Below are positions 28,474 to 36,459 of a DNA stretch of 64,000 nucleotides, piece after piece. The notes beneath the pieces were generated by a model, which searched no databases, was not told the DNA's origin, and was given only the letters and a program-made list of their open reading frames with translations. This stretch comes from Umezawaea tangerina. Its GTDB lineage: Bacteria > Actinomycetota > Actinomycetes > Mycobacteriales > Pseudonocardiaceae. The translations under genes and the position numbers were made by a program. The stretch is taken from contig NZ_PVTF01000008.1 in the NCBI RefSeq assembly GCF_003002815.1, positions 62,001 through 126,000 on the forward strand, in the 5' to 3' direction. The first letter of the stretch is position 1; each line of letters starts with the position of its first letter.

Positions 28474-29910
28474 TCACGCGGTCACTGGCGCGCGGCGGGC
28501 GAACAGCAGGACCGCCGTCACGGCCGCGGTGCCCAGGAGCAGGGCCGCGAGGGCGGTCGCGCAGGTGTGGACGGCGTCGGCGTGACCGGCTCCGGCGTGC
28601 AGCCGGGCCGCGAACACGACGCCGACCACCGCCGCGCCCAGCGCCCCGCCGAGCTGGCGCACGGCGTTGTTGGCCGCGCCCGCCATCCCGGCGAGCTCAC
28701 CGGGCACCGACTGGACGGCGACGGCGGTGCTCGTGGCGATGACCAGCCCGCAGCCCGCGCCGGTCACCAGCAGCCGCCACGAGAACCCGCCGAGACCGCT
28801 GGTGTCGGTCGTCCCCAGCAGCGCGACGAGCCCGGCCGCCGCGACCAGCAGTCCTGCCGTGAGCACGACCTTCGGCCCGAACACCGCCTGCAGCCGGGCG
28901 GCGGCGAAGCTGGCCACGGCGTTCCCGCCGAACAGGCACGCCAACCGCACGGCGATGCCCAGCGGAGGCACCTCCTGGTGGGCGAAGAACAGGCTCAGCA
29001 CGAACACCACGCCCACGATCGTGAACAGCACCACCATCGCCGCGAGCCCGGCCGCGCTGAACCCGCGCGAGGCGAACAGCGCGGGCCGCAGCAGCGGCGT
29101 CGCCGACCGCTGTTCCACCACCACGAACACCCCCAGCACCACCACCCCGACCCCGAGCCCGACCAGCGCCTGGACCGACCCCCACCCGGACACCCCACCG
29201 CTGATCACGCCGTACACCAGCGCCACCACCCCCACCGCCCCGCTGACCTGCCCCGCCCAGTCCGCCGACCGCCCCTCCGGCGCCGACGACTCCAACGCAC
29301 GACTCGCCCCGAACACCATCACCACCACGGTGAGCACCGCGATCGGCGGGTACAGCCAGTACCAACCGGCCCGCTCCGCCACCACCCCCGACAGGAACGG
29401 CCCACCACCCAACCCCAGCACGTTCGCCGCCGCCCACGCCGCGATCCCCCGATCGCGCGCCACCACCCCCACCGCCGTCGACGCGACCAACGCCAACGTC
29501 GCCGACATCACCAACCCCGCCCCCAGCCCTGCAGCGGCCTGCGCCGCCCACAACACCGAAATCCCCACCCCACCGGCCACCCCACCCGCCAAGAACCCCA
29601 ACACCGTCCCCACCACCGTCAACCCCAACCCACCCAACGCGACCCGCCTGCGCCCATGCAGATCCCCAAGCACCCCACCCGACAGCACAGCCCCCACCAA
29701 CGCCACCGTGAACGCCGCCGACACCCACTGCAAACCCGCCGTACTGGCCCCGGTGCCGGCTCGAACCGCACCCAACACCCCGTTCACCGCCGAAAAGGGC
29801 AGGTACGACACCAACATCGCCGCACACGCGAACACCGGCGTCGTCCACTGAGGACGGTCCAACCGCGCCGCGCGACGATGACGACGCGGCGAAACCTCAA
29901 GTGTGGTCAT
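28474..29910 (-). CDS. MFS drug-efflux transporter (DHA2-like)
   Basis: This 478-residue membrane protein has about 14 hydrophobic segments and the motif A-like loop GDLHGRRRVALGG between helices 2 and 3. Helix 5 is rich in glycine (GLGAGLVMSATLALVAS), as in drug/proton antiporters. The coding strand is rich in GGG/GTG runs. The ATG at 29910 was preferred over an upstream in-frame ATG because the operator-like DNA at 29922-29955 would otherwise be coding. It is divergent from the repeat-bearing region. Confidence 0.88.
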   Translation of the reverse strand: MTTLEVSPRRHRRAARLDRPQWTTPVFACAAMLVSYLPFSAVNGVLGAVRAGTGASTAGLQWVSAAFTVALVGAVLSGGVLGDLHGRRRVALGGLGLTVVGTVLGFLAGGVAGGVGISVLWAAQAAAGLGAGLVMSATLALVASTAVGVVARDRGIAAWAAANVLGLGGGPFLSGVVAERAGWYWLYPPIAVLTVVVMVFGASRALESSAPEGRSADWAGQVSGAVGVVALVYGVISGGVSGWGSVQALVGLGVGVVVLGVFVVVEQRSATPLLRPALFASRGFSAAGLAAMVVLFTIVGVVFVLSLFFAHQEVPPLGIAVRLACLFGGNAVASFAAARLQAVFGPKVVLTAGLLVAAAGLVALLGTTDTSGLGGFSWRLLVTGAGCGLVIATSTAVAVQSVPGELAGMAGAANNAVRQLGGALGAAVVGVVFAARLHAGAGHADAVHTCATALAALLLGTAAVTAVLLFARRAPVTA

Positions 29911-29921
29911 GGCGAAGACGG

Positions 29922-29955
29922 TATCTAATGATACTGATATAAGCAAGCTTAGATA
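29922..29955. promoter_or_regulatory. AT-rich dyad upstream of the MFS gene
   Basis: TATCTAA at 29922-29928 and its complement TTAGATA at 29949-29955 flank an AT-rich spacer. The left arm is also part of a smaller palindrome, GTATC-taat-GATAC (29921-29934). The site is 12 bp upstream of the transporter start codon. It looks like an operator for a TetR- or MarR-type repressor. No such gene is adjacent. Confidence 0.5.
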
Positions 29956-30000
29956 GAGTCTCGGTCATGACCAACGACTCTGGAACCAACACACAAGCTG

Positions 30001-30240
30001 CCCAGCAACGCTGGAAGCGACAAGCCAAGTCGCCCTACCCAACGACGCTGGAAGCGAGCATGCTCGTCCGCTCGTGCGGTCGGCTTGACTTGGGGTTTTT
30101 GGGCTTAAACTTGCGGCGGCGGGCAGGCTCTACCACCTGCCCTTTTTCGCCCGACGAAGCCCAAAAAAAGGGCCCCAAGTCAAGCCGACCGCACCGCCCA
30201 CGGCTGTAGCGATACCCCCGGAGACCACCGCAGCGACACC
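30001..30240. repeat. Branched-hairpin repeat family A, copy 1
   Basis: The core hairpin spans 30074-30194. Outer arms GTGCGGTCGGCTTGACTT and its complement pair over 18 bp and continue through GGGG/CCCC, TTTTT/AAAAA and GGGC/GCCC. Inside is a second stem, GGGCAGG (30121-30127) with CCTGCCC (30136-30142), followed by TTTTT, which is a classic intrinsic terminator on the + strand. Two CTGGAAGCGA-type direct repeats precede it (30001-30020, 30038-30057), and AGCGACACCCC-type short repeats follow. It lies between the divergent MFS and histidine-kinase genes. The whole gap 29911-30312 holds only this element and the MFS dyad. Open frames through it are artefacts. Confidence 0.88.
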
Positions 30241-30312
30241 CCCCGACTACACCCCCAGGCCTACACCCCCAAGCCCACGACGCCACCCCACCCCCTCCGT
30301 ACCCTGACCCCC

Positions 30313-31554
30313 ATGCCGCCCGACCCCCTCCCCCCTCCCACCCGGCGGTTCACCCCACCCCAACTCCTCGCCTTCGACCTCCTCGTAGTCGCAGCCCTCG
30401 CCGTAGTCGGCCAAGCCCCCTACCTCGCCCACACCCGCTACGACATGCCATACGCCCACGAGGTCGAGATCACCATCTGGGTCCTCGTCTCGGTCTGCGT
30501 CCTCTGCCGCCGCCGCTTCCCACGCCAGGCCCTCGTCCTCGTCGTCGTGCTGGGCATGGTGGCCCTGTGGATGCGTTCGCACGCGCCGATCAGCCAGTAC
30601 GTCGCTCTGGTCGTGTACTCCGTGGTGACGGTGTCCACGCGCCGGGCGGGCATGATCGCCGCGGGGGTCACCGGTGTGCTCGTGGTGGGCGCGACCTACC
30701 TGGGCACCATGGAGCCGGTGCCGATCCTGAGCCTGGGGGAGGGCGCGACCATCGTCATCGGCTGGTTGGCGGGGGAGTACGTCCGGGTGTCGCGCGAGCG
30801 CGCGGTCGAGTACGCCGGGATCGTGGCGGAGCGGGCCGCGGCCGCCGACGCCGACCGGCGCGACCAGGTCGTGCGGGCGGTGGCCGAGGAGCGGGTCAAG
30901 CTGGCCAGGGAGCTGCACGACGTGGTGGCGCACGCGATGAGCGTGATCGCGGTGCGCGCGGGCGTGGCCAGGGTGGTGATCGACTCCCAGCCCGACCAGG
31001 CGCGGGAGGCGCTCGGCATCATCGAGACCACCACCCGCCGCACGTTGCAGGAGATGCGCCTGCTGGTCGGTGTCCTGCGCGGCTCCGACACCGCGCCCGC
31101 CGAGCTGGGGCCGGCTCCGGGGCTCGCCGACCTGCCCCGGCTGATCTCGGAGGTCGAGGTGACCGGGGTGGCCGTGGACCTCGACGTGCGGGGGCGGGTG
31201 CGGGCGCTGAACCCGGCCGTCGACCTGTCGGCGTACCGGATCGTGCAGGAGGCGCTGACCAACGTCGTGCGGCACGCCGGGCCGACGCGGGCGAACGTCG
31301 TCCTGTCCTACGGGGCGAACCAGGTGGGCATCGACGTCCACGACACCGGTCGCCGCACCCGGCCGGACCCCGCGCTGGTCCGCGAGGGCACCGGCCACGG
31401 CCTGATCGGCATCCGCGAGCGGGCCGCGCTGTTCGGCGGCCACGCGACCGCGGGTCCGGACGGCGACGGCTACCGCGTCCGCGTCGTGCTGCGCACCAAC
31501 GACCTCGACCACGCCGTCGAGGACGACGCCCACCAGGAGGAGCCCGCCCGATGA
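30313..31554 (+). CDS. Two-component sensor histidine kinase (NarL/DesK class)
   Basis: This 413-residue membrane kinase has four or five hydrophobic segments in residues 20-160, a short cytoplasmic linker, then a HisKA_3 dimerisation helix with the phospho-accepting histidine in ARELHDVVAHAMS. The HATPase domain has the N-box region YRIVQEALTNVVRHAG and G-box GTGHGLIGIRERAALFGG. It lacks a periplasmic sensor domain. The stop overlaps the response regulator start (ATGA), so they form a pair. The signal is unknown; such pairs often control neighbouring exporters. Confidence 0.92.
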   Translation: MPPDPLPPPTRRFTPPQLLAFDLLVVAALAVVGQAPYLAHTRYDMPYAHEVEITIWVLVSVCVLCRRRFPRQALVLVVVLGMVALWMRSHAPISQYVALVVYSVVTVSTRRAGMIAAGVTGVLVVGATYLGTMEPVPILSLGEGATIVIGWLAGEYVRVSRERAVEYAGIVAERAAAADADRRDQVVRAVAEERVKLARELHDVVAHAMSVIAVRAGVARVVIDSQPDQAREALGIIETTTRRTLQEMRLLVGVLRGSDTAPAELGPAPGLADLPRLISEVEVTGVAVDLDVRGRVRALNPAVDLSAYRIVQEALTNVVRHAGPTRANVVLSYGANQVGIDVHDTGRRTRPDPALVREGTGHGLIGIRERAALFGGHATAGPDGDGYRVRVVLRTNDLDHAVEDDAHQEEPAR

Positions 31555-32216
31555 CGATCACCGTGGTCATCGCCGACGACCAGGCGCTGGTGCGCGGCGG
31601 GTTCCGCGTCCTGGTCGACGCCGCCGCGGACATGACCGTGCTCGGCGAGGCCGCCGACGGCGCGGAGGCGGTCGACCTGGCGGCGCGGCTGCACCCCGAC
31701 GTGGTGCTGATGGACATCAGGATGCCGGTCATCGACGGCATCGAGGCCACCCGCCGCATCACCGCGGCCGACGACACCGAGGCCACGAAGGTGCTGATGC
31801 TGACCACCTTCGACCCCGACGAGTACGTCTACGCCGCTCTGCGCGCGGGCGCCAGCGGCTTCCTGCTCAAGGACACCAGGCCCGAGGACCTGCTGGAGGC
31901 CATCCGGGTGCTGGCCGCCGGGGACGCGCTGCTCGCGCCGAACGTCACCCGCAGGCTCATCAAGGAGTTCGCCGACCGCCCCGAGCGGAACGGCCGGCCG
32001 GTACCCGACGTCCTGAGTGGACTGTCCAAGCGCGAGCAGGAGGTGCTCGTGGAGATCGCGGGCGGCTGGAACAACACCGAGATCGGCGCCCGCCTGCACA
32101 TCAGCGCCGCCACCGCCAAGACCCACGTCAGCAGGCTCCTGCTGAAGCTCCGGGCCCGCGACCGGGCCCAGCTCGTCATGATCGCCTACGAGTCCGGTCT
32201 GGTCACCCCCGGCTGA
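31551..32216 (+). CDS. NarL/LuxR-type response regulator
   Basis: This 221-residue regulator has a receiver domain (VVIADDQALVRGG; phospho-acceptor Asp in VVLMDIRMPVIDG at about residue 54; conserved Lys in GFLLKDTRPEDL). The C-terminal LuxR helix-turn-helix (LSKREQEVLVEIAGGWNNTEIGARLHISAATAKTHVSRLLLKL) lies at about 155-200. It is the partner of the kinase encoded immediately upstream. Confidence 0.94.
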   Translation: MTITVVIADDQALVRGGFRVLVDAAADMTVLGEAADGAEAVDLAARLHPDVVLMDIRMPVIDGIEATRRITAADDTEATKVLMLTTFDPDEYVYAALRAGASGFLLKDTRPEDLLEAIRVLAAGDALLAPNVTRRLIKEFADRPERNGRPVPDVLSGLSKREQEVLVEIAGGWNNTEIGARLHISAATAKTHVSRLLLKLRARDRAQLVMIAYESGLVTPG

Positions 32217-32226
32217 GGGCCGGTCG

Positions 32227-33156
32227 TCAGCTCACGTCGAGCACGGCCTTGCCGTGCAGCTTGCGGCCCACCAGCGCCTGCGCGGCGGTCGCCACGTCCT
32301 CCCAGCCGCCGCGCCAGGCGATCTGGGGGTCCAGGTGTCCGGCCGCCACCTGCTGCGCGAGCCAGGTCAGGTCCGGCCCCAGCCCTTGGCCGCCCGCGAG
32401 GAAGAACGAGGTGACCGAGCGGTTGTGCCGTCCCCTCGAACCCTCGAAGGCGCTCTGCAGGAACGTCTCGCGTTCGTCGGACGACCGCCCGACCGACGCC
32501 AGCGTCCCGTGCTCGGCGAGCTTGTCGTAGGCGCGCACGAGCACCGGCCCGCCGACCACGTCGAGCACGCCGTGGACCGGTTCGGCGAAGTCCAGCCGCT
32601 CGTCGACCACCTCGTGCGCACCCAGCGCCCGCAGCTCGTCCCCGCGCAGGTCGGGCGCACCGGTGGAGGCGATCACGTACGCGCCCCCGCGCCGGGCCAG
32701 CTGCACCGCGAACCTCCCGACCCCGCCCGTCGCCCCGGTCACCAGGATCCGCCGCGCCAGCAGGGGCCCGAGTCGGTGCAGTGCGCGCAACGCGCTGCCC
32801 GCCGCGACCGGAAGGGTGCTCAGCGCACCCGGATCGGTGCCCTCCGGCGCCACCCCGAGGTAACCGGTGTCCACGGCCCGCAACCGCGCCCACGCCCCCG
32901 CGAGCCCCAGCGTCACCACCAGCGTCCCCTCAGCAGGCCCGGACCCGTCCGCGGCCGCCCGTTCCACCACCCCCGCGGCGTCCCACCCCAGCACCGCTCC
33001 GGGCGGCGCCCCCTGCAACGCCCCCTTCACCTCCCCGCTGTTGAGCGAGGTCGCGGAAACCCTGACCAGCGCCTCGTTCGGCGCGGGAACCGGATCGGGC
33101 GCCTCACCGAGCCGCAGCCCGCCCGGCGCGGCGGGATCCACCAGGAGTGCGCGCAC
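32227..33156 (-). CDS. Zinc-free MDR-superfamily oxidoreductase (quinone reductase-like)
   Basis: This 309-residue protein begins [22 protein letters not shown]. It has the GroES-like N-terminal domain and cofactor motif [20 protein letters not shown] at about 138, but no zinc-ligand cysteines. It probably reduces quinones or activated alkenes with NADPH. It is divergent from the TetR gene at 33239 with a perfect palindrome between them, so it is the likely target. It converges on the response-regulator gene. Confidence 0.9.
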
Positions 33157-33181
33157 AGTGCCTACCTTCCTCGACCAAAAG

Positions 33182-33196
33182 TGCCACTCAGTGGCA
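33182..33196. promoter_or_regulatory. Perfect palindrome between oxidoreductase and TetR genes
   Basis: TGCCACT-C-AGTGGCA is an exact 15-bp inverted repeat with a one-base centre. It is 26 bp from the oxidoreductase start and 43 bp from the TetR start. This is a likely TetR operator controlling both promoters. Confidence 0.72.
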
Positions 33197-33238
33197 TAAG
33201 CCTACGGGAGGCAAACGCTCCTGCGCTACCCTGGTCCC

Positions 33239-33889
33239 GTGCCCACCGCCGCTTCGTCGCAGACCGCTCTTCCCCTGCGGGAGCGCAAGAAGCGGCGCAC
33301 GCGCGAAGACCTGATCGAGACCGCCCTGCGGCTGTTCGACGAAAACGGCTTCGCCGCCACCACCCTCGACGAGCTGTGCGACGCGGTCGGCGTCTCCAAA
33401 CGAACCTTCTTCCGCTACTTCACCAGCAAGGAAGACGTCGCCGCCGCCCCGTCCCAGGACCTCTGGACAACGTTCCTCGACCAGCTGCGCACCACCGACC
33501 CGACCGACCGCACCGTCATCGCCCTCCTCCACGAAGCCCTCCTCGCGGCCCTGGCCGAAATGCCCGCCGCCAACTGGCCCACCCGCGTCCTCCTGACCAG
33601 ACGCCTGGCCTCCGAAACGCCGTCCATGAAGGCCCACGACCTCTACTTCTGCCACCGCACCACCAAAACCGCCCTGAACCTCCTCCACACCCGCCTCGTC
33701 CTCACCCCACAAGACGACCTCCGCGTCCACCTGGCCCTGGACCTCCTCCTCTCGGCATTCCACCTGGCCCAGGAAGCCTGGGCGGCACAACCGACAACCC
33801 CCACGAAGAACGACCTCATCACCCACATCGCCACAGTCTTCGAGGCCGTCCCCCAAAGCCTCACCGTAAAAGCGATAGCCCGACCCTGA
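33239..33889 (+). CDS. TetR-family transcriptional regulator
   Basis: This 216-residue repressor has its helix-turn-helix at about 20-60 (REDLIETALRLFDENGFAATTLDELCDAVGVSKRTFFRYFTSKE) and a helical ligand domain. The GTG at 33239 lies just 3' of a TACCCT that could be a -10 box of a leaderless message. It likely represses the divergent oxidoreductase at 32227-33156 through the palindrome at 33182-33196. Repeat element copy 2, carrying an intrinsic terminator in the right orientation, follows the stop. Confidence 0.9.
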   Translation: MPTAASSQTALPLRERKKRRTREDLIETALRLFDENGFAATTLDELCDAVGVSKRTFFRYFTSKEDVAAAPSQDLWTTFLDQLRTTDPTDRTVIALLHEALLAALAEMPAANWPTRVLLTRRLASETPSMKAHDLYFCHRTTKTALNLLHTRLVLTPQDDLRVHLALDLLLSAFHLAQEAWAAQPTTPTKNDLITHIATVFEAVPQSLTVKAIARP

Positions 33890-33940
33890 AGTCCACATAG
33901 GACTGTCTAACCCGGACGGTCTAGTGAATAGGTAGCCACC

Positions 33941-34175
33941 CAACCCAGCTGGAAGCGAGCATGCTCGTCCGCTAGTGCGGTCGGCTTGACTTGGGGTTTT
34001 TGGGCTTAAACTTGCGGCGGCGGGCAGGCTCTACCACCTGCCCTTTTTCGCCCGACGAAGCCCAAAAAAGGGGCCCCAAGTCAAGCCGACCGCACCCGGA
34101 GACAGCTGTAGCGACACCCCCGGAGACCGCGGTTAGCGACACACCCGGAGACCACCGCAGCGACACCCCCGTAGC
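33941..34175. repeat. Branched-hairpin repeat family A, copy 2
   Basis: The core hairpin at 33975-34095 is nearly identical to copy 1. Its inner stem is GGGCAGG (34022-34028) / CCTGCCC (34037-34043), followed by TTTTT at 34044-34048. One CTGGAAGCGAGC leader repeat precedes it (33941-33960). Three tail units of about 24 bp, each ending near AGCGACAC and starting CGGAGAC, follow (about 34096-34168). It lies downstream of the TetR gene in the orientation where the inner stem would terminate that transcript. Within 33890-34430 the only other content is the transporter-gene remnant at 34224-34355. Confidence 0.88.
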
Positions 34176-34223
34176 AACCGCCGAACTCCCACACCACAGA
34201 CCGATCCCGCACACCCCCCACAC

Positions 34224-34355
34224 CCCATCCGGCTCTTGACCGACGAGACCGGACACGGTGTGGTGATGGTGACGCACAGCGTCGCCGACGCCGTTCCAGG
34301 CCCCCGCGTCGTCGTGCCCACCGACCGGCCGGGAAAGGGTGGCGTTGGACGCCCC
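34224..34355 (+). pseudogene. C-terminal remnant of a TauB/SsuB-type ABC ATPase gene
   Basis: In frame with the downstream dioxygenase, about 40 codons read IRLLTDETGHGVVMVTHSVADAV...PRVVVPTDRPGK. This matches the family's H-loop and D-loop end (VTHDVDEAVxLADRVVVLxxRPG) seen in nitrate/sulfonate/taurine importer ATPases. Walker A, signature and Walker B regions are gone. Structured repeat copy 2 and its tail occupy the space where they would be. Its position next to a TauD-type gene fits a decayed sulfonate-uptake operon. Confidence 0.55.
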
Positions 34356-34430
34356 GATCACGTTGCTCCGCAAAGAGGTCCCTGCCGCCGTCCGGGTGAC
34401 CGTTTCCCGACCAGACACGAGAGGACGACC

Positions 34431-35291
34431 ATGACTGTCGTATCCGCGGTGGTGCCGCTCACGGCCACCATCGGCGCGCGGGTCTCCGGCTTCGACCTGT
34501 CCAGGCCCCAGACCCCGGCGGAGGTCGCGGACATCCGCGCCGCACTGCTCCAGCACAAGGTCCTGGTCTTCCACAACCAGAACCTGACCCCCACGGCCCA
34601 CCGCGACTTCGCCGCCACCCTCGGCGAGCTCACCCCCGCCCACCCCGTGGTGCCCGGCCTGGACGACGACCACCCGGAGATCTACGTCCTGGACAGCGGC
34701 GACGGCGGCAAGTCCCCGGTCTGGCACACCGACGTCACCTTCATGCCCCGTCCACCACTGGGCTCCGTGCTCCGCGCGGTCTCCTTGCCCCCGGTCGGCG
34801 GCGACACCTGCTGGACCGACCTGGAAGCCGCTTACCTGGCCCTCTCACCGCACGTCCGCTCGCTCGCCGACCGCTTGACCGCACTGCACGACGGCCGCAA
34901 GGACTTCGAGGACTACCTCCACACCCGCCTCGGCGGCGAGGGCAGCACCTGGGAGGGCGAACGCGTCACCTCCCTCGAACCCTCAGTTCACCCCGTCGTC
35001 CGCGTCCACCCCGAAACCGGCCGCCGCAGCCTCTTCGTCAGCCCCGGCTTCACCACCCGCATCCTCGACGTCACCGAAGCCGAAAGCCGCGCCCTCCTCA
35101 CCCTCTTCTTCTCCGTCATCGGCCTCCCCGAACACAGCGTCCGCCACCGCTGGAGCCCCGGCGACCTCCTCATCTGGGACAACCGCAGCACCGCCCACTA
35201 CGCCGTCGACGACTACGGCGACCAACACCGCGTCATGCACCGCGTCACCATCCGCGGCGACGCACCCTTCGGCGTAGACCGGGAAAGCTGA
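34431..35291 (+). CDS. TauD/TfdA-family 2-oxoglutarate-dependent dioxygenase
   Basis: This 286-residue non-haem iron enzyme has the metal ligands His99 and Asp101 in VWHTDVTFM, the distal histidine in WDNRSTAHYAVDDYG and the 2-oxoglutarate-binding arginine in HRVMHRVTIRGD. Length and spacing match taurine dioxygenases, which release sulfite from taurine or related sulfonates. The ATG at 34431 follows GAGAGGACG. No intact transporter genes remain beside it, only a short ATPase remnant upstream, so its present role may be changed. Repeat copy 3 lies 40 bp past its stop. Confidence 0.9.
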   Translation: MTVVSAVVPLTATIGARVSGFDLSRPQTPAEVADIRAALLQHKVLVFHNQNLTPTAHRDFAATLGELTPAHPVVPGLDDDHPEIYVLDSGDGGKSPVWHTDVTFMPRPPLGSVLRAVSLPPVGGDTCWTDLEAAYLALSPHVRSLADRLTALHDGRKDFEDYLHTRLGGEGSTWEGERVTSLEPSVHPVVRVHPETGRRSLFVSPGFTTRILDVTEAESRALLTLFFSVIGLPEHSVRHRWSPGDLLIWDNRSTAHYAVDDYGDQHRVMHRVTIRGDAPFGVDRES

Positions 35292-35330
35292 CCAGCAAGC
35301 CAAGCAAACCAACTAACCAACCAACCAACG

Positions 35331-35520
35331 GCCCAACGACGCTGGAAGCGAACACAAGCCGCCCAACGACGCTGGAAGCGAGCACGCCCGTCCGCCAGCG
35401 GCCGGCTTGACTTGGGGTTTTTGGGCTTAAAATTAGTCGGCGGGCAGGCTCTACCACCTGCCCTTTTTCGCCCGACGAAGCCCAAAAAGAGGGGCCCCAA
35501 GTCAAGCCGGCCGCACCTCA
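35331..35520. repeat. Branched-hairpin repeat family A, copy 3
   Basis: The core hairpin at 35398-35514 has outer arms GCGGCCGGCTTGACTT and complement. Relative to copies 1 and 2, a T is C in the left arm and the opposite A is G in the right arm, so pairing is kept. The inner terminator stem is at 35442-35463 with TTTTT at 35464-35468. Two exact leader repeats containing CCCAACGACGCTGGAAGCGA start at 35331 and 35361, 30 bp apart. It lies between convergent genes; 35521-35643 is a degenerate tail of short AC-rich repeats with nothing else visible. Confidence 0.88.
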
Positions 35521-35643
35521 CACGGCGGATGCGACCCCAGCCGATCGACCACGATCAGCGACGGCCCCCGACAAACCACAACGGCAACCCCGCCGACCAA
35601 CCACGATCAGCAACAGTCCCCGATCAGTCACAGCGGCACCCCC

Positions 35644-36459
35644 TCACCCCACCGACCGATAAGCCACCCCAGTCGCATTAGCCGTACTCCCCGTGTACAA
35701 CCCCGTCCGATGCGTCGAAGTCGACAGCGTGAACCACGAGTACCGCTCCACGAACGACAACCCCTGCAGCATCAACGCCGAGTTCTTCGCGAACGCCGCC
35801 TGCTGGTCCGACGACGGGTACCGCGGTGTGCTCGTCGAGAAGTCGATCAGCGCGTACTCGGTCAACCAGATCGGCTTGTGGTACCGGTTGTACACGTTCT
35901 GCAGGTACCCCTGGAGCTGTCCGACGGCCGCCGCCGAGAAGTCCCCGCCGTACCAGTGCAGCGGGATGAAGTCCACCCGGTACCCCCGTGACGCCGCCCC
36001 GCTCATGAACCGGTCCAGCCACCCGCCCGCCGTGTCGCCGCCGAACGCCACCGCGGGTGCGCTCAGCCTCATCCCCGTGCCCTGCAACTGGGGCCACAGC
36101 TGCAACGCCTGGTCGACCGACATGTTCGCCTGCCCGCCCATGTCCGGTTCGTTGAACGCCAGCAGCGTGGTGCCGAGCGACTTGGCCTGGTTGAGCTGGG
36201 TCTGGTTGACCGACCCCGACCCCCAGATCATCGGCACGAACTCGGCGCTGGAGGGCGCGTTGATGCCCTGCTTGTCGGACGCCCACGTGTAGTACCACCC
36301 CGCGCCCACGTCGCTCAGCGCCGCCGTGACGCCGGAGAAGTTGGCGGCGCTGACCCCTTTCTTCTTGACGGCCGGGAGTGCCGATACCGGTGACGGCACC
36401 AGGCTCAGCGCGGTGAGCAGGGCCAGCGCCATGAGCAGCAGCCGGTGTGCGAATCGCAT
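35644..36459 (-). CDS. Secreted glycoside hydrolase (Asl1-like / GH128 type)
   Basis: This 271-residue protein has a Sec signal peptide (MRFAHRLLLMALALLTALSLV...VSA, cleavage about residue 27). The catalytic core has the two expected acids: the acid/base Glu in LLAFNEPDMGG and the nucleophile Glu in IWLTEYALIDF. Other marks are GAGWYYTWASDKQG, FVPMIWGSG and FIPLHWYGGD. The Asl1/GH128 family cleaves beta-1,3-glucans, so the likely role is extracellular glucan degradation. It is divergent from the AraC gene at 36595 and converges on repeat copy 3. Confidence 0.9.
   Translation of the reverse strand: MRFAHRLLLMALALLTALSLVPSPVSALPAVKKKGVSAANFSGVTAALSDVGAGWYYTWASDKQGINAPSSAEFVPMIWGSGSVNQTQLNQAKSLGTTLLAFNEPDMGGQANMSVDQALQLWPQLQGTGMRLSAPAVAFGGDTAGGWLDRFMSGAASRGYRVDFIPLHWYGGDFSAAAVGQLQGYLQNVYNRYHKPIWLTEYALIDFSTSTPRYPSSDQQAAFAKNSALMLQGLSFVERYSWFTLSTSTHRTGLYTGSTANATGVAYRSVG

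Follow-up and report, generated by a model that had tools for sequence, protein, structure and literature searches.

Branched hairpins dispersed behind genes in Umezawaea tangerina are related to hairpins beside DUF222-HNH genes in other genera

ERIC, NEMIS/Correia and BOX/RUP elements are imperfect intergenic palindromes of roughly 100–150 bp that occur in many copies. The hairpin family described here is set apart from them, by description, through its link to DUF222-HNH genes, its AGGGG bulge and its covariation across genera. REP/REPIN sequences, as described in PMC3116915, consist of short REPs arranged in inverted doublets and linked to the RAYT tyrosine transposase, REPINs being non-autonomous miniature mobile DNA. 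Like them, the present hairpins are dispersed extragenic palindromes in many copies with a nuclease-type gene linked in the genome (RAYT in the REP case). Unlike them, each is a single branched unit of about 121–130 nt, the linked gene in relatives is of the DUF222-HNH kind, no Y1 gene was detected in five genomes, and the units of the window are not inverted doublets. REP13E12, HNH endonuclease and DUF222 have been grouped together (PMC10589994), and mycobacterial 13E12 repeats were placed among the most frequently gene-converted loci, without defined function (PMC13061034). The hairpin-linked genes of relatives belong by name to the same DUF222-HNH protein family, whereas the Umezawaea copies lack such a gene. 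The hairpins also resemble intrinsic terminators, with an inner GC stem-loop followed by T5 and a position mostly after genes; they differ from them in that this stem-loop lies inside an outer hairpin of roughly 30 bp, of near-constant sequence and in many copies. Among the matches listed in a literature search on titles and abstract openings, with subscription papers mostly outside its reach, no paper dealt with these hairpins or with a hairpin–DUF222 link.

Three copies are present on the + strand of the window, the whole 64,000-nt stretch of the U. tangerina genome that was analyzed. Copy 1 (30074–30194) lies between divergent genes encoding an MFS transporter and a histidine kinase (both from Pfam). 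Copy 2 (33975–34095) starts 85 nt past a TetR-type gene, and copy 3 (35398–35514) stands between a convergent pair, a dioxygenase-like gene (identified by eye, with no Pfam match) and a glycosyl hydrolase gene (Pfam). R1, a covariance model built from the genus only, matched them at 30071–30197 (135.8 bits, E 6e-30), 33972–34098 (139.8 bits) and 35393–35519 (136.6 bits). The unit is a single 121-nt branched hairpin, and copies 1 and 2 share 97% identity over 159 nt. The arms of the outer stem P1 (33975–33996 and 34074–34095 in copy 2) are separated by 77 nt and perfectly complementary over 22 bp (20 bp in copy 3); the computed folding energy of copy 2 is -84.7 kcal/mol (z = -10.0), a value equaled by 0 of 200 shuffled sequences. 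The arm motif was recovered in the window three times without mismatch and once with two mismatches, the latter being the opposite arm of copy 1, against 0.00 expected from shuffles. All three copies contain an inner GGGCAGG/CCTGCCC stem with TTTTT immediately behind it (30121–30147, 34022–34048 and 35442–35468, all on the + strand). The first-pass annotation, made from the letters of the window, had described these three copies with a common architecture, a pairing outer stem and a terminator-like inner stem on the + strand, copy 1 between divergent genes and copies 2 and 3 after + strand genes; the sequence check, the perfect arms, the fold of copy 2 and the neighboring genes agree with it on each of these points. 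Its description of three copies within 5.5 kb holds as far as the three are present, but the element is not local, since about 84–112 copies were counted in the genome.

This count was obtained from the 10.68-Mb U. tangerina genome (G000), where 112 exact occurrences of the 3' arm AGGGGCCCCARGTCAA were counted and none of its reversed pattern. A pattern with the T-rich arm gave 86 places, 84 of which are elements by sequence while two were judged to be chance matches; a second listing of 87 matches likewise came down to 84 after one opposite-strand match, one chance match and one duplicate of a window copy had been dropped. Four of the additional AGGGGCCCCARGTCAA places were inspected and all were full elements of another outer-stem class. 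An absence of further copies in the genome had been named beforehand as the result that would speak for a local duplication; 112 exact arms and 84 full copies were found, and this copy number rules such a duplication out.

Within the host family, the exact 3' arm was present in 10 of 390 genomes, the own genome included: 112 times in G000, 73 and 64 times in two genomes of the same genus (G001 and G002), 39, 25 and 45 times in three genomes of genus g34, and 10, 6, 32 times and once in G257, G261, G288 and G099. The reversed pattern was absent from all ten arm-bearing genomes and gave 4 matches in the other 380. The single G099 match was rejected as chance, being a short palindrome directly after the apparent end (by eye) of a translation-factor gene. 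When the model was run across the order under strict filters, 6 of 249 genomes were positive, again including the own genome; among them are G009, where a DUF222-HNH gene is adjacent, and G073, which carries hairpins and no DUF222 gene. A single model match (L349, E 9e-7) in a 78% complete genome from another family of the order (G490) may be a distant member. The window element had no match in plasmid and phage collections. Most of the listed places in G001 hold single hairpins, and some hold inverted pairs of full hairpins. Such pairs, a few hundred bases apart (L086/L090, L106, L108, L110), show the arrangement seen around the DUF222 genes of G257, but with a spacing too small for such a gene. 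In G002, one hairpin (about 2,615,490–2,616,970, L101/L125) apparently has its inner loop interrupted by about 1.3–1.4 kb of inserted DNA, the visible ends of which resemble inverted repeats, and near position 1487 of L105 the 5' half of a hairpin runs straight into a frame resembling a UvrA-type ATPase by eye.

The search with the exact arm motif through the 390 family genomes led, in the loci inspected, to hairpins and DUF222-HNH units. In G257, the motif forms five inverted pairs 1.3–2.4 kb apart; four enclose a DUF222 match and the fifth (L235) encloses, from its reading frames, a broken gene of the DUF222 kind. Compared with Pfam, two G257 proteins both contained DUF222, with HNH in one of them at 20.9 bits, just below the cut-off of 21.4; the protein encoded beside the hairpin of the Lentzea-genus genome G009 was above the cut-off for both DUF222 and HNH. 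No convincing PDB relative of one DUF222-HNH protein was found by sequence (best E 0.29). In G035, 24 of 39 hairpins lie 280–535 bp from the 5' side of a DUF222 gene, against 0.56 expected, and all 24 point away from the 5' end of the gene; the other 15 have no listed DUF222 gene nearby, 33 of the 50 genes of this genome being listed. Inverted repeats of 130–230 bp on both sides were detected at 8 of 30 DUF222 loci versus 0 of 98 control regions; the two-sided repeat was absent at 22 of the 30, a few of which end at contig ends.

Model R1 was searched against 43 selected sources and matched hairpins next to DUF222 genes in genera g34, g27 and g8, with E values of about 1e-14 to 1e-6 and mostly over the full length. 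The same end hairpin, by sequence and by structure, thus stands at DUF222 loci of three other genera. R1 gave no match at the DUF222 loci searched in G002 (3), G258 (3), G288 (3) and G261 (2). Two of the eight loci with two-sided repeats belong to Lentzea G288 and carry another palindrome family without R1 match. DUF222 genes of this genome lie near ACGTTGGCATTTTCG-type palindromes at L255, L264 and L273, on both sides in the latter two, which suggests that DUF222-HNH units may as a rule be flanked by hairpins. The linkage is present in relatives and lacking in the own genome: no DUF222 gene was found in G000, G001 or G073, and these genomes therefore have no such enzyme available at present. 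G002 has 7 DUF222 genes, none of them beside a listed hairpin, and the three g34 genomes have 50, 46 and 61.

Taken together, these data support a single family of hairpins with two modes of existence, one in linkage with DUF222-HNH genes, seen in some genera, and one, in Umezawaea, orphan, placed at gene ends and terminator-bearing. Since about a hundred hairpins stand behind genes and are akin to those of nuclease genes, the window hairpins look like remains of a so far undescribed kind of mobile element that would have been reused as transcription stops. More precisely, we consider with about even confidence that the three copies are non-autonomous, orphan members of the family that brackets or adjoins DUF222-HNH genes elsewhere, copied by a nuclease and reused as terminators. 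In this mechanism the nuclease, ancestrally a DUF222-HNH enzyme, would act on the folded or duplex hairpin and open the site, and repair would then copy in the hairpin from another site. Such copying would spread hairpins, overwrite existing ones in place and leave no target duplication. In Umezawaea the nuclease gene would have been lost or unlinked, and the copies, lying mostly downstream of genes, would offer their inner stem-loop and T-run as an intrinsic terminator. Movement, cutting and termination are all steps that we infer from sequence.

The architecture is kept by compensatory changes within the genus and across three genera. The outer stem P1 of about 22 bp is followed by a near-constant AGGGG bulge on the 3' side, beside CCCC, with GGGG opposite CCCC, and then by stem P2; the inside holds a TAAACT-type loop in several genera (g1, g58 and g27; 0 of 28 copies in G035 and 1 of 15 in G288) and, in the orphan families, an inner stem-loop followed by T residues. 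Cores were extracted from 190 of 195 elements, and 55 of the 165 unique cores formed the genus alignment A1. Over its 28 pairs, 98.3% of cells were paired versus 88.7% after shuffling, and 145 cells showed double changes versus 41 in shuffled alignments and 9–29 when the pairing was slid. In a three-genus alignment (A2; 22 rows from g1, g58 and g8), 15 of 22 P1 pairs had double changes, 94.8% of P1 cells were paired and the covariation score was 0.555 versus 0.161 for shuffles; one P1 pair appears as G-C, A-U, C-G and U-A. P2 was weaker across genera (70.8% paired), partly because of misalignment. The number of distinct pair types was no higher than in shuffles (22 versus 21.0 in A1, 43 versus 44.3 in A2). 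These figures cover the P1/P2 region, the alignment slipping at the inner helices P3 and P4. Relatives in g58 keep the bulge, the loop and the T-run, with much of P1 altered on both sides. The first-pass annotation had asked for conserved base pairs in a larger alignment, failing which the element would count as a local duplication; double changes were found in both the genus and the three-genus sets. No gathering match to any of 4227 Rfam families was obtained in 10 loci, and the window region 29900–35700 gave one chance-level match, outside the hairpins.

Of two gene callers made in-house, the better one, which was correct for the window gene 35644–36459, was used to score placement relative to genes; the other gave similar figures for G000, but the wrong strand for that gene. 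Elements less than 700 nt from a locus end, copy 3 included, and one G035 element without a called neighbor were set aside. Among 86 copies in G000, 44 lie between convergent genes, 30 are sense, 8 antisense and 4 divergent (sense versus antisense, p = 0.0005; convergent versus divergent, p = 1.5e-9), and 74 of them have a left gene transcribed towards the element. The corresponding numbers of convergent, sense, antisense and divergent copies were 32, 21, 10 and 2 in G002 (n = 65), 19, 22, 11 and 3 in G001 (n = 55) and 7, 6, 1 and 0 in G288 (n = 14). The excess of convergent over divergent positions was also significant in G001 (p = 0.0009) and G002 (p = 7e-8); that of sense over antisense did not reach significance in G002 (p = 0.07), G001 (p = 0.08) or G288 (p = 0.12). 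G035 has a different distribution (2, 0, 18 and 8; n = 28), because the hairpin stands there upstream of the DUF222 gene.

A terminator-like stem with T-run was present in all 83 G000 cores examined. Interior TTTT was counted in 84 of 84 copies in G000, 35 of 64 in G002 and 21 of 45 in G001, and a looser T-run rule was positive for 53 of 62 and 36 of 45 copies in the latter two. A T-run also occurs in g58 and in the Lentzea-genus copies of G009 and G289. Interior TTTT was absent from every copy counted in G035 (28), G257 (11), G261 (2) and G288 (15), and a terminator function is therefore not general to the family. Behind genes of Umezawaea, the inner stem-loop and its T-run would act as a predicted intrinsic terminator. 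The earlier remark that termination alone does not explain the family is upheld by the relatives without T-run, by the copy number and by the DUF222 linkage elsewhere.

Copying by a nuclease is the reading that we judge most likely, though we would not put it above an even chance, and its main rival, a possible but clearly more doubtful one, starts from the host. The hairpin would be a structured RNA, or a regulatory element of 3' ends, that is selected by the host and homogenized by ordinary gene conversion, and the DUF222-HNH gene would be a guest that uses it as a landing or recognition site rather than its origin. The strong compensatory change, the near-constant bulge and loop motifs and the placement after genes argue for such an element, as do the orphan hairpins in the DUF222-free genomes G000, G001 and G073 and the T-runs that orphan families carry in both g1 and g58. 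They have to be weighed against the G035 hairpins, which precede the nuclease gene and face away from it instead of standing at gene 3' ends, against the patchy distribution (10 of 390 family genomes by the exact arm, 6 of 249 order genomes by the model) and against the lack of any Rfam match.

Positions were compared between species using 83 elements from G000, 66 from G002 and 46 from G001, the last genome being covered in part. Between G000 and G002, both 3-kb flanks are shared by fifteen pairs of elements in like orientation and by one pair in inverted orientation, about one or fewer shared gaps being expected at random from an estimated nine thousand or so gene gaps. All four gaps between flank and element were below 450 bp in 10 of the 15 pairs, and the other five had one gap of 0.8–1.9 kb. 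The cores at shared positions, compared for 13 of the 15 pairs, had a mean identity of 0.819 (ranks 5–61 of 62), versus 0.824 for random G000–G002 pairs, 0.943 within G000 and 82–95% for the flanking genes. The shared gaps imply either repeated insertion into the same gaps or overwriting of old copies. In addition, G000 copies combine outer-stem classes and loop classes in many ways, and these mixed combinations speak for exchange between copies. In genomes without DUF222, ordinary homologous recombination could do the homogenizing. No clean empty site was seen, nor any variation within species.

Some positions bear traces of rearrangement. At one G002–G001 position (L144/L193) the hairpin is reversed, with flank homology to within 15–35 nt, and at L011/L118 hairpins occupy the same place in opposite orientation; two other reversed G002–G001 matches are due to inverted pairs of hairpins at those places in G001. 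In the window, copies 1 and 2, which are direct repeats, enclose a block of four genes (30313–33889; histidine kinase, response regulator, zinc oxidoreductase and TetR by Pfam), which was not found at the corresponding place in G002, where 583 bp of the interval were unread. The 3'-terminal remnant of an ABC-transporter ATPase gene (34235–34390, + strand), whose homology begins about 140 nt to the right of copy 2, is degenerate in the window, and the corresponding frame is open in G001 and G002 (PF00005 in both proteins). Given the block not found in G002 and the ATPase remnant, copy 2 therefore lies near a rearrangement point. A hairpin is present at the G002 place corresponding to copy 3, where its distance from the left gene is greater by about 730 bp. 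It is conceivable that the hairpins are recombination sites, that is dispersed homology or site-specific points for the exchange of gene blocks: the 97%-alike repeats around the four-gene block, the proximity of copy 2 to the broken end of the former ATPase gene and the opposite orientations at L011/L118 and L144/L193 would fit. We nevertheless regard this as improbable, as a single block was inspected in detail, orientation was kept at 15 shared G000–G002 positions against one inverted, and the DUF222 linkage would be left unexplained.

The suggestion in the first-pass annotation of a mobile non-autonomous element or a structured RNA is supported by the copies and the covariation; its "mobile" part is what we infer, and it came with no target-site duplication signal. 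Over three genomes, no convincing excess of boundary k-mers was detected (best z 4.8 in 7,956 tests). This same result counts against mobilization of the hairpins by a DDE transposase, as in classical MITEs, or by a RAYT (Y1) transposase, as in REPINs, a reading suited to inverted arms, absence of a gene and many dispersed copies, which we disfavor as very unlikely. The Y1 transposase domain Y1_Tnp (PF01797) was found in none of five genomes searched (G000, G001, G002, G073 and G075), while controls gave a signal in 5 of 14; inner stem pairs covary too, beyond the ends; and the sole linked gene found in the loci inspected is DUF222-HNH. Ordinary intrinsic terminators or a local duplication without further meaning, to which the terminator-like inner stem-loop with T-run and the position of most copies after genes might point, are refuted by a copy number of about 84–112 genome-wide with 0.943 mean identity in G000, by homology across genera including relatives without T-runs (G035, G257, G261 and G288), and by the nuclease-gene linkage in other genera.

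A wider and distinctly tentative proposal is that DUF222-HNH genes with hairpin ends form a distinct mobile class acting by nuclease-directed gene conversion, REP13E12-type repeats included, whose orphans would spread, overwrite one another chromosome-wide and become host terminators. DUF222-HNH (13E12) genes can be very numerous, with 46–61 copies in each of the three g34 genomes, and the cognate hairpin at or beside them is a concrete and testable candidate substrate. The family would also offer a natural example of concerted evolution acting genome-wide on short non-coding elements, because copies in the same gap of two species are no more alike than random copies. Should the hairpins terminate transcription, a mobile repeat would supply about a hundred gene ends per genome.

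Arrays of short repeats, with units mostly of 24–31 nt, extend beyond many hairpins. The direct repeat CTGGAAGCGA, which had been reported ahead of the core, occurs five times in the window, always before one of the three cores, versus 0.09 expected. Upstream of copy 1 (29998–30057, + strand), two clear units with a GCTGGAAGCGA core start 37 nt apart; copy 2 has one upstream unit (33938–33974, + strand), with CTGGAAGCGA at 33949–33958 and a small GAGC..GCTC palindrome, and copy 3 has two 30-nt units (35324–35383, + strand). The short repeats announced after the core were recovered for copy 2 as three AGCGACACCCCCGGAG-type units at a spacing of 24–25 nt (34093–34174, + strand), the first bases of which overlap the end of P1. 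Downstream of copy 1, the repeats are of AGCGAYACCCC type (30200–30243, + strand; repeat families D6 and D10), and copy 3 is followed by two 52-nt units that are 77% alike (35536–35639, + strand).

Across the genome, GCTGGAA occurs 133 times within 150 nt upstream of 84 G000 elements, against 1.4 expected, always on the same strand and mostly at a spacing of 29–32 nt; at least one CTGGAA lies within 300 nt of 67 of 87 G000 elements. The heptamer is enriched downstream instead in G001 (23 versus 1.1 expected), weakly represented in G002 (5 and 2 versus 1.4) and hardly enriched in G288 (1 and 0 versus 0.24), and in G035 the shorter CTGGAA is enriched on both sides, pointing outward. At L236 in G257 (1941–2125), an array of 25-nt repeats directly 3' of the hairpin has a AGCCGCCC-AAC-CTGGAA core, which resembles the core of the 30-nt units preceding the Umezawaea hairpins. 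Finally, a small palindrome of the form GAGC-N2/3-GCTC, with a variable loop, stands just ahead of many G000 hairpins and is represented in the window within 33938–33974.
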